Shown here: positions 561 to 5,155 of the stretch, piece after piece | How positions within the stretch are numbered: the first letter of the stretch is position 1 | Layout: each line of letters begins with the position of its first letter | Virus record (IMG/VR): IMGVR_UViG_3300001847_000572 | Location: 1-29,298 of that record | Source: a virus | DNA: 29,298 bases | Reading direction: 5' to 3' (one strand) | Notes under the pieces: generated by a model | Database searches by the model: none | What the model was told of the DNA's origin: nothing | What the model saw: the letters and a program-made list of their open reading frames with translations, nothing else | Translations under genes and position numbers: made by a program

Positions 561-863
561 ATGCCAACATATGTATTTCGTAATAAAGAAACAGGTAAAC
601 AATTTGAATCGTTCATGGGTATTTCAGCAAAAGAAAAATATATTGAAGAAAATCCAAATATTGAGCAAATTATCACAGAAGTAAATATTGTTTCTGGTGT
701 AAATAGTGGCGCAAAAGTTCCATCAGGTTTCAAAGATGTTCTGTCTAAGATTTCAGATGCACATCCACAAAGTCCATTAGCACAAAAACATAAAACTAAA
801 ACAATCAAAGAAACTAAGACACGCGATATCATAAAGAAACATGTCGCTAAAATGACTTCGTAA
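561..863 (+). CDS. Small conserved phage protein, FmdB-like N-terminus without cysteines
   Basis: 100 aa. The start MPTYVFRNKETGKQFE resembles the opening of FmdB-type zinc-ribbon proteins (MPTYEYRC...), but the protein has no cysteine at all, so it cannot form the zinc ribbon. The C-terminal third is Lys/Thr-rich and basic, which would suit nucleic-acid contact, but that is inference. AAGGA lies 7 bases upstream of the ATG. The stop codon shares its last base with the ATG of the next gene (TAATG), which indicates translational coupling with the exonuclease gene. Similar short proteins occur as hypotheticals in T4-like cyanophages; the function is unknown. Confidence 0.75.
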   Translation: MPTYVFRNKETGKQFESFMGISAKEKYIEENPNIEQIITEVNIVSGVNSGAKVPSGFKDVLSKISDAHPQSPLAQKHKTKTIKETKTRDIIKKHVAKMTS

Positions 864-1546
864 TGTTCAATTTTGTAAAACTTCCTGAATTGGATTTTGA
901 TTTAGAATCCATTACTACTGAATTTGGTAGGAGATATATTACACCAAGTGGAGAAAAGTATCCATCTGTAACAACGATATTATCATCTTATAATAAAGAT
1001 GCTATTATGGAATGGAGAAATGCTGTTGGTGAGAAAGAAGCAAATAAAATTTCAGGTCGTGCAGCACGAAGAGGAACAAGACTTCACAAGTTATGTGAAG
1101 ATTATGTAAATGGAAATCTTGGCGAATTGCAGCGTCAAATGATGATGCCTTTTGATAAGATGATGTTTCGCCAAGTAAAAAAATTACTTGATGAAAATTT
1201 GAATAACATTTATTGCCAAGAACAAGCCCTTTATAGTGATAGATTGAAAATTGCTGGTCGCGTTGACTGTATTGCTGAATGGAAAGGGAAATTATCAATT
1301 ATTGACTATAAATCGTCAACAAAAATCAAAGACGAGCGTTATATAGAGAACTACTTTATGCAATGCACGGCTTATTCGGAAATGTTTTTGGACTTGACAG
1401 GAAAAGAAATTGATGATATAATAGTCCTTATAGCAACTGAAGAAGAAGTGCCGCAAGTATTTGAAAAGAAGAAGTTTGACTATTTGGAAAGATTGAATAA
1501 ATATATCAGCAATTATTCTATGAGCATGGTTGCGAAAGCAGGCTAA
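863..1546 (+). CDS. PD-(D/E)XK exonuclease, RecB/Cas4-like
   Basis: 227 aa. The RecB-family nuclease motifs appear in order: GTRLH (His75), Glu120, GRVD (Asp135), DYK (Asp148, Lys150) and QCTAY (Gln167). In this family Asp135, Asp148 and Lys150 coordinate the metal and cleave DNA, and the Q-xxx-Y motif is diagnostic of RecB/AddB-like exonucleases. The protein is a stand-alone nuclease domain with no helicase part. Homologous single-domain exonucleases are common in T4-like cyanophages and probably act in recombination or host DNA breakdown. It overlaps the preceding stop by one base, so it is translationally coupled. No motif residue appears to be missing. Confidence 0.85.
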   Translation: MFNFVKLPELDFDLESITTEFGRRYITPSGEKYPSVTTILSSYNKDAIMEWRNAVGEKEANKISGRAARRGTRLHKLCEDYVNGNLGELQRQMMMPFDKMMFRQVKKLLDENLNNIYCQEQALYSDRLKIAGRVDCIAEWKGKLSIIDYKSSTKIKDERYIENYFMQCTAYSEMFLDLTGKEIDDIIVLIATEEEVPQVFEKKKFDYLERLNKYISNYSMSMVAKAG

Positions 1547-1658: not shown

Positions 1659-1916
1659 ATGAGATGCCCATATTTAACAAAAGACGAATTATGTAGTATT
1701 TACGAAACTAGACCGGAATGTTGCAGAAGTTTTCCAAGCAAAAGTCCAAATTGTTATGTGCCGGCATGGTGCGATTTAGATTGTAAAAATTGTAAAGATA
1801 AGTGTTGTAATTATATAAGTTTAGATAGTAAAACAGGAAATGAACCAAAGCCTATAGATTTTTATAGGTCACTTGACATAAAGTGTGAAAATTGCACTCA
1901 ATGTTGGGTTAAGTAA
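1659..1916 (+). CDS. Small cysteine-rich protein, YkgJ/CxxCxxCC-like
   Basis: 85 aa with 13 cysteines (3, 12, 21, 22, 32, 38, 42, 45, 49, 50, 76, 79, 82). Residues 10-26 contain ELCSIYETRPECCRSFP, which matches the closing signature of YkgJ-type Zn/Fe-chelating proteins (Y-xx-RP-xx-C-xx-FP). The CxxC...CC cluster at 42-50 resembles the opening signature of the same family. The two halves are therefore in reverse order compared with a normal YkgJ domain. A metal-binding role is likely but the substrate is unknown. An in-frame stop at 1632 excludes a longer N-terminus. The gene ends about 10 bases before the tmRNA acceptor segment and may share its transcript. Confidence 0.7.
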   Translation: MRCPYLTKDELCSIYETRPECCRSFPSKSPNCYVPAWCDLDCKNCKDKCCNYISLDSKTGNEPKPIDFYRSLDIKCENCTQCWVK

Positions 1917-1925
1917 AGAATTGCT

Positions 1926-1983
1926 GTATGAAGTGAAGTAAAAGGTGTTCTGGACGAGGGTTCGATTCCCTCCATCTCCACCA
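1926..1983 (+). ncRNA. ssrA: tmRNA acceptor piece (3' segment, upstream)
   Basis: This roughly 58-nt segment carries the 3' strand of P2, the T-arm, the 3' acceptor strand, discriminator A1980 and the encoded CCA (1981-1983). On its own it looks like a tRNA 3' half, but no tRNA 5' half lies upstream. Its acceptor partner is at 2082. The mature 5' end is inferred from pairing with 2249-2255. Confidence 0.85.
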
Positions 1984-1994
1984 TAAGGACTTTT

Positions 1995-2114
1995 ATGTTT
2001 GAAAATTGGCATTGGGTTTATATATGGGGCATAATAGTTTTTGTAAATTATATGTTTTGGATTATTAAGAGTCTTTTTGATGGGGATGCTCGGTTTCGAC
2101 AGGGCAATGAGTAG
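1995..2114 (+). CDS. Possible 39-aa single-pass membrane peptide inside the tmRNA spacer
   Basis: An ATG at 1995 opens a 39-codon frame ending with TAG at 2112-2114. AAGGA (1985-1989) lies 5 bases before it. The peptide starts MFENWHWVYIWGIIVF and has one strongly hydrophobic, Trp/Tyr-rich stretch at about residues 6-24 followed by Lys and charged residues, like a small inner-membrane protein. It fills the 98-nt spacer between the two tmRNA pieces and its last 11 codons run into the coding piece, so translation and tmRNA processing would compete. It may be a real microprotein or a chance frame; composition and RBS favour the former slightly. The function is unknown. Confidence 0.4.
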   Translation: MFENWHWVYIWGIIVFVNYMFWIIKSLFDGDARFRQGNE

Positions 2115-2167
2115 CGGAACAGACAGCACGGTAGGCGATGACCGTAAATCAAGCAAAACTCATAAAT

Positions 2168-2200
2168 GCAAACGAAAGCGTTTATAAATTAGCAGCCTAA
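2168..2200 (+). other. ssrA: tmRNA tag reading frame, ANESVYKLAA
   Basis: The resume codon GCA (2168-2170) opens a frame reading Ala-Asn-Glu-Ser-Val-Tyr-Lys-Leu-Ala-Ala, then TAA (2198-2200). It has the standard AN start and LAA end; the LAA terminus is the ClpXP-recognised signal in studied bacteria. The length equals the E. coli encoded tag (ANDENYALAA). The Lys before LAA, where E. coli has Ala, is unusual to my knowledge. An A at -4 from the resume codon, important for frame setting in E. coli, is present. Confidence 0.9.
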
Positions 2201-2208
2201 AAACTGCT

Positions 2209-2248
2209 TAGGGTTTCGGTAACTGTCCTAGTAACAGAATCAGTTACC
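2209..2248 (+). other. H-type pseudoknot after the tmRNA tag
   Basis: Two interleaved stems are visible. TAGGG (2209-2213) pairs with TCCTA (2226-2230), including one G-U pair. GGTAACTG (2218-2225) pairs perfectly with CAGTTACC (2241-2248). Loops are 4, 0 and 10 bases. This is the classical H-type layout of a tmRNA pseudoknot downstream of the tag. Confidence 0.8.
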
Positions 2249-2273
2249 ACTTTATCAAACTAAGGAGATTCAC

Positions 2274-2429: not shown

Positions 2430-2460
2430 GGTGGGTTATCCTTAAACCCACCATCCTTTT
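2430..2460 (+). terminator. Rho-independent terminator after the 47-aa gene
   Basis: GGTGGGTT (2430-2437) pairs perfectly with AACCCACC (2445-2452) over a 7-base loop, followed by ATCCTTTTT. It ends the tmRNA/47-aa peptide unit. The T-tract runs straight into the late-promoter motif TATAAATA at 2461. Confidence 0.85.
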
Positions 2461-4678: not shown

Positions 4679-4941
4679 TGAAATTTACTTTTATTTGTGA
4701 AGATTTGGCTGATATTGAATATTCTGGTGGTATCAAAATTACTCATGAATTTGAACGCGATGATTTGTCAGGTATTCTTGAAAATTTCAAAGATTTTCTC
4801 GCAGGATGTTCTTTTCAAGTGCAAGATTGTATTTTAGAAATGAATCATATTGAAGAACCATATCCTACATCTAATCTTTCTGCTGATGAAATTTTGAATG
4901 GACCTAAATCTCTCAATGATGTTACAGATAATGCCAACTAA
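4678..4941 (+). CDS. Small conserved phage protein between dsbA and 33
   Basis: 87 aa, acidic. The opening MKFTFICED and THEFERDDL resemble a small hypothetical protein common in T4-like phages of aquatic bacteria. The function is unknown and no motif is recognisable. It is coupled by one-base overlap to dsbA and overlaps gene 33 by 11 bases, so it belongs to the dsbA-33-59 operon. Confidence 0.7.
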   Translation: MKFTFICEDLADIEYSGGIKITHEFERDDLSGILENFKDFLAGCSFQVQDCILEMNHIEEPYPTSNLSADEILNGPKSLNDVTDNAN

Positions 4942-5155
4942 AGATGAAATGGCCAAATTTGCAGAAGCGATTGAAGATATAGTTACAAAAACAGATTATA
5001 ATTATATTGAAGCAATCGTTCATCATTGTGAAACTACTGGTCTTGAGATAGAAGTCGCAGCAACACTTATAAATCCTAATCTAAAATCAAAGATTAGATG
5101 TGTTGCTATGGACTTCAATTTACTAAAAGGAAAATCTTCTCGGTTGCCTATATGA
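4931..5155 (+). CDS. 33: Late promoter transcription accessory protein gp33
   Basis: 74 aa from ATG 4931 (MPTKDEMAKF). This start is preferred over the upstream ATG at 4898 because the frame between them is entirely inside the previous gene and gp33 of related phages begins MPTxxEM. T4 gp33 (112 aa) bridges RNA polymerase beta-flap and the sliding clamp gp45 as co-activator of late transcription. The short form here is typical of cyanophage-like relatives. The conserved core is DYNYIEAIVHHCETTGLEIE followed by LIxxNLKSKI. The stop TGA overlaps the ATG of gene 59 (ATGA). Confidence 0.8.
   Translation: MPTKDEMAKFAEAIEDIVTKTDYNYIEAIVHHCETTGLEIEVAATLINPNLKSKIRCVAMDFNLLKGKSSRLPI

Follow-up and report, generated by a model that had tools for sequence, protein, structure and literature searches.

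The window, i.e., the whole 29,298-nt stretch of DNA analyzed here, is the 29.3-kb IMG/VR virus record IMGVR_UViG_3300001847_000572, a fragment of a T4-like myophage genome. Its annotated proteins show a T4-like gene content (exonuclease, ssb gp32, DsbA, gp33, gp59, tail tube, baseplate wedge, and hub). The tmRNA gene is located in the replication and recombination region (exonuclease, DsbA, gp33, gp59, and ssb gp32) with the baseplate genes further along, and the gene order is exonuclease, CxxCxxCC ORF, tmRNA, several ORFs, DsbA, gp33, and gp59 (Table 1). Directly 3' of the tmRNA there is a 47-aa ORF (2274-2417) with a signal peptide and Lys/Ala/Glu repeats, and a terminator-like hairpin comes next.

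Table 1. Features of the tmRNA locus and its neighbors (window coordinates).
Feature	Position	Strand	Evidence
PD-(D/E)XK exonuclease, conserved upstream neighbor of the tmRNA	863-1546	+	phrog_298 (E 1e-72), PF12705
Candidate (inferred) sigma-70 promoter within the exonuclease gene: TTGACA-17-TATAAT with TG	1394-1422	+	nearest good match in window
Small CxxCxxCC-domain protein between exonuclease and tmRNA	1659-1916	+	PF03692
Acceptor (3') piece: 5' end, P2 strand, T-arm, acceptor 3' strand, encoded CCA	1922-1983	+	ARAGORN, Rfam, alignment of relatives
Outer helix (P2d) 5' strand TGCTG, partner CAGCA 2124-2128	1922-1926	+	RF04321 alignment; covaries in relatives
P2 strand TGTTCTG, partner CAGGGCA 2100-2106	1946-1952	+	covariance model, relatives
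T-arm GAGGG-TTCGATT-CCCTC	1956-1972	+	sequence, Rfam, relatives
Acceptor 3' strand CATCTCC, discriminator A, CCA (1981-1983); pairs with 2082-2088, including G3-U70	1973-1983	+	sequence, relatives
Intervening segment, 98 nt; expected to be excised; ends can lengthen the acceptor stem	1984-2081	+	folding, relatives
Coding (5') piece, taken as far as the pseudoknot end	2082-2248	+	ARAGORN, Rfam
Acceptor 5' strand GGGGATG	2082-2088	+	sequence, relatives
GGTTTCGAC in 5' half	2092-2100	+	sequence, ARAGORN, Rfam
P2 5' strand CAGGGCA, just after TCGA	2100-2106	+	fixed-position test in relatives
Outer helix 3' strand CAGCA	2124-2128	+	RF04321 alignment, relatives
PK1-type stem ACGGT/ACCGT upstream of tag	2128-2145	+	Rfam alignment; sequence
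Tag reading frame ANESVYKLAA and TAA	2168-2200	+	sequence, ARAGORN
H-type pseudoknot: TAGG 2209-2212/CCTA 2227-2230; GGTAACTG 2218-2225/CAGTTACC 2241-2248	2208-2248	+	sequence, relatives
Candidate intrinsic terminator of the unit (terminator-like hairpin)	2430-2452	+	sequence
gp33-like late-transcription coactivator, conserved downstream neighbor	4898-5155	+	PF16805 (E 1e-17)

ARAGORN reported the locus as tmRNA* (permuted) with the tag ANESVYKLAA. The Rfam covariance model RF04321 (tmRNA_permuted) aligned over its full length (1-213) with 142.1 bits against a cut-off of 47 (E = 3e-28), and RF01850 (beta_tmRNA) gave 118.5 bits against a cut-off of 84 (E = 8e-36), whereas the alpha and cyano models gave 59.9 and 38.1 bits. 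Based on the ARAGORN call and on these scores, of which beta is the highest among the three type models, positions 1922-2248 are a real tmRNA gene, circularly permuted, in two pieces and of the beta type. The first-pass annotation, which had proposed a phage-encoded permuted two-piece tmRNA from the letters, was therefore right, and the covariance-model match whose absence would have refuted it was obtained with both Rfam models. A single-strand fold of the whole gene was also considered as support; its margin over shuffles is no more than moderate (z -2.3), and since it does not match the pseudoknotted two-piece structure either, it was left unused.

The 3' half (T-arm to CCA, 1956-1983) lies upstream of the 5' half, which holds GGGGATG and GGTTTCGAC, as had been described, and the 7-bp acceptor stem with the Ala-identity G3-U70 pair, the intact tag and the intact H-type pseudoknot were likewise confirmed. 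The start of the acceptor piece, placed earlier at 1926, was corrected to 1922 or earlier because of the position of the outer helix. The usual tmRNA tag pattern is ANDE....LAA, and the window tag departs from it but keeps the degradation-type end.

The two remaining pairings had to be redrawn. P2 was described earlier between 1946-1952 and CGGAACA at 2115-2121, which is the wrong register, the partner being CAGGGCA. At fixed positions in 25 distinct exonuclease-linked phage tmRNAs, the model register forms 6.64 of seven pairs versus 4.60 in the earlier one. In total 166 of the 175 P2 cells are paired, compared with 144.7 ± 2.6 (maximum 156) when the partner strands were re-dealt 1000 times, and compensated P2 changes such as CAGCGTA/TGCGTTG and CAGATTG/CAGTTTG are seen in relatives. 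The outer helix that was proposed between ATGAAGT and ACTTTAT (1928-1934/2250-2256) is not conserved, and a perfect 7/7 complement within a stretch of ~100 nt is found in a minority of relatives. The conserved outer helix in the RF04321 alignment and in the relatives is TGCTG/CAGCA, with AGTTG/CAACT, GATCG/CGATT, AGTCG/CGACT, and GTTAC/GTAAC elsewhere. Five Watson-Crick pairs are formed there in 19 of 26 cases versus 5.2 ± 1.9 when the search is repeated on re-dealt pieces, and since the sequences are mutually related neither these nor the P2 shuffle figures are probabilities. In the covariation count of the relatives the P2d and pseudoknot-stem registers were chosen as the best fit, which biases the counts; the fair tests of pairing are the fixed-position P2 and the re-dealt P2d.

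The acceptor stems vary on both sides and are always fully paired (GGGGATG/CATCTCC, GGGCCTG/CAGGTCC, GGGCCAG/CTGGTCC, and GGGGGTG/CACCTCC). The window and all relatives with extractable pieces have both the G3-U70 pair and the discriminator A; extraction demanded at least six of the seven acceptor pairs but did not require a G-U at position 3. Judging from these alignments, the acceptor stem, P2, the outer helix and the pseudoknot change in a compensated fashion among the relatives. The second refutation test set for the first-pass annotation, that the pairings be kept in related phages, was passed as well, with P2 in the model register and the outer helix at 1922-1926/2124-2128; the P2 and outer-helix registers first drawn are not conserved.

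Relatives of the neighboring exonuclease define a set of 46 viral loci, and a permuted tmRNA lies downstream of this exonuclease in 37 of them (34 by ARAGORN, with L019, L020, and the truncated L043 added by the covariance model). Four of the nine other loci have less than 1 kb of downstream sequence. The other five (L037-L041), all of one lineage, have the exonuclease followed by 4.9 kb or more of sequence, in which neither ARAGORN nor the covariance model detected a permuted tmRNA; apparently it was lost there or never gained, and the tmRNA is therefore dispensable. The tags differ widely between phage lineages, and almost all retain a hydrophobic end in -AA, mostly -LAA, -MAA or -IAA. Most of the 19 exonuclease-linked loci scanned for type are beta (L025 and L046 are alpha) and the named isolates compared below score as alpha, from which it follows that the slot holds different types. 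There is a moderate correlation between the distances of the exonuclease and those of the tmRNA (Spearman 0.41, reached by 3 of 2000 permutations), with a tmRNA tree that is short and weakly supported; this would fit mostly vertical inheritance together with some replacement. That the tmRNA gene is complete and is kept in the same slot by a family of related aquatic T4-like phages is well supported.

The spacer between the tmRNA halves also varies among the loci. In L044 (7620-8017), and also in L043, a protein gene lies inside the permuted tmRNA gene: the 398-nt spacer holds a complete 124-aa ORF (MLSFRNFTESREDPHLYHATY...), whose product has no Pfam match over the cut-off and which is absent from the 119-nt spacer of the sister L042. 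The spacer of L005 (~1606-1700) has another T-arm-like piece (GGGTTCGATTCCCACCGTATGCCA), which may be left over from a tRNA 3' end. In L049, L112, L118, L188, and L195 only 4-7 nt separate the CCA from the 5' acceptor strand, and the halves are almost joined.

The T4-type late promoter word TATAAATA occurs without mismatch 41-47 nt before the T-arm GGAC, just before the RNA 5' end, in 7 of the 24 distinct loci linked to the exonuclease (background 0.9% of random 50-nt segments from the same loci), and near-consensus sigma-70 promoters with up to two mismatches are found at the same place in 7 of 26 loci (background 3.2%); these counts are not independent because several loci are near-identical relatives. 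Directly before the tmRNA of the window neither TATAAATA nor a near-consensus sigma-70 promoter is present. The candidate inside the exonuclease gene (Table 1) may be accounted for by the coding sequence, since the relative L005 has a similar, weaker word there. Early expression of the tmRNA was proposed by the authors of the Melnitz study (PMC9004378).

Taken together, this is very probably a functional phage ssrA of the permuted beta type that has been maintained largely by vertical inheritance and would rescue ribosomes and tag proteins during infection via host factors. By analogy with the established tmRNA pathway, its role is most likely that of an ordinary trans-translation RNA acting with host SmpB, AlaRS, and ClpXP. 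Cleavage of the precursor by host tRNA-processing enzymes would yield two RNAs, the acceptor RNA (~62 nt) and the coding RNA (~170 nt), which the acceptor stem, P2 and the outer helix at 1922-1926/2124-2128 would keep joined. Host AlaRS would charge the acceptor RNA through G3-U70, and the tmRNA with host SmpB would free ribosomes stalled on broken mRNAs, ANESVYKLAA being added as a ClpXP-type degradation tag. In this way ribosomes and amino acids may be recycled while host and phage mRNAs are cut up. We infer this processing, charging and tagging, and their benefit to the phage. No SmpB was found in the 29-kb window or in 19 larger phage contigs and that of the host is assumed; as the window is a fragment, the phage could also encode SmpB outside it. 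Control of ribosome rescue by the phage, as already suggested in the first-pass annotation, may be considered plausible.

A different and rather improbable role is that of a decoy or inhibitor of host trans-translation, in which the phage RNA titrates SmpB or swaps the host tag, and other proteins are tagged or spared. This was proposed for the tag-less tmRNA of mycobacteriophage DS6A, a TLD-only RNA similar to a molecule with demonstrated tmRNA-inhibiting activity (PMC4131195; PMC11915505), and the difference in tags between phage lineages would agree with it. Yet a decoy needs the TLD alone, whereas the tag frame, the resume codon context, the pseudoknots and the degradation-type C-terminus are all kept here.

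With regard to the origin of this phage ssrA, transfer from a host of a two-piece-tmRNA lineage had been suggested. The beta score agrees with an origin in such a lineage, but a recent transfer is unsupported, as many divergent phages have the gene in the same slot and the closest sequences among those aligned are phage tmRNAs. These are 76.9%, 75.5%, and 75.2% identical to the window tmRNA, while the best bacterial one reaches 66.7% within a limited sample (399 genomes of one order, few with a permuted gene, and 13 further loci). It comes from a 1.9-Mb genome of the sampled order and has the tag ANDESYALAA, which L013 and L024 among the phage loci have too. Integrating elements often use ssrA, and a recently captured, functionless host ssrA, i.e., a transduction relic or attachment-site remnant, would also agree with the beta-type scores that point to a bacterial beta origin. 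Such use of ssrA is described in PMC11915505 as well. We consider this explanation very improbable, since no integrase is found among the annotated window proteins, the gene content is T4-like, phage rather than bacterial sequences are closest, and the shared slot across divergent phages with compensated changes largely refutes it. A mis-call of a tRNA-like stretch with chance pairing, for which the failure of the first P2 and outer helix could be cited, is refuted by two independent programs and the compensated changes and has practically no probability left.

A wider reading of the working phage ssrA, which we put forward only tentatively, is that it belongs to an ancient phage-owned lineage in a fixed T4-like slot, with alpha or beta type differing by lineage. 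The early and/or late promoter that some members have just before the mature 5' end may then provide rescue and a tag that are timed by the phage and independent of the host.

Two-piece tmRNAs of T4-like marine phages were published in 2022 (PMC9004378); the phenomenon is therefore already known and the window is a further well-supported example. Buchholz et al. (2022) described the two-piece tmRNA of Melnitz and counted 53 such RNAs in phage genomes, of which 50 are aquatic or marine; of 47 related contigs, 17 had a permuted tmRNA. Their discussion covers the maintenance of ribosomes as well as selective tagging (PMC9004378). The tmRNA database holds 79 unique phage tmRNAs (PMC11915505). The additions made here are modest, namely the beta type, the conserved slot and, in some relatives, promoters immediately ahead of the gene. 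It is now testable whether ribosome rescue during infection is provided by the phages themselves and whether they select the degradation tag.

Melnitz, a phage of OM43, is also a T4-like myophage with a permuted two-piece tmRNA in the same slot as in the window, its order being PhoH, PD-(D/E)XK exonuclease, two small ORFs, tmRNA, gp33 coactivator, and gp59. The slot is shared by the pelagiphages Mosig (exonuclease, ORF, tmRNA, and gp33) and HTVC008M, in which the exonuclease (144063-144755) is followed by an ORF overlapping the permuted tmRNA (145161-145370) and later by the gp33 late-transcription factor. The HTVC008M gene (L227; KC465899.1) has the tag ANFNEYALAA and is unannotated in the phage-collection record. 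In contrast to the beta-type window, Melnitz, Mosig, and HTVC008M score as alpha type (106.7, 67.6, and 83.8 bits for the three). A glutamine riboswitch adjoins the Melnitz tmRNA, whereas the Rfam scan gave no match to it in the window at the gathering threshold. Stenotrophomonas phages (Marzo, DLP6, and others) also have a permuted, beta-type tmRNA, but it adjoins tRNA genes and is not downstream of the exonuclease. Compared with the bacterial two-piece tmRNA of the betaproteobacterial lineage (RF01850/RF04321), the window gene is phage-encoded, scores 118.5 bits with beta_tmRNA versus 276.6 bits for the Azoarcus gene, and has a 98-nt spacer versus 26-44 nt in the bacterial members examined, for which the fetch pattern allowed 20-50. 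The 3'-terminal hairpin of the bacterial beta model, an accessory and non-defining element, is unaligned in the window, where the next ORF follows immediately on the tmRNA 3' end. The gene order, the acceptor stem, T-arm, P2 and outer helix, the tag and the downstream pseudoknot are shared by both.
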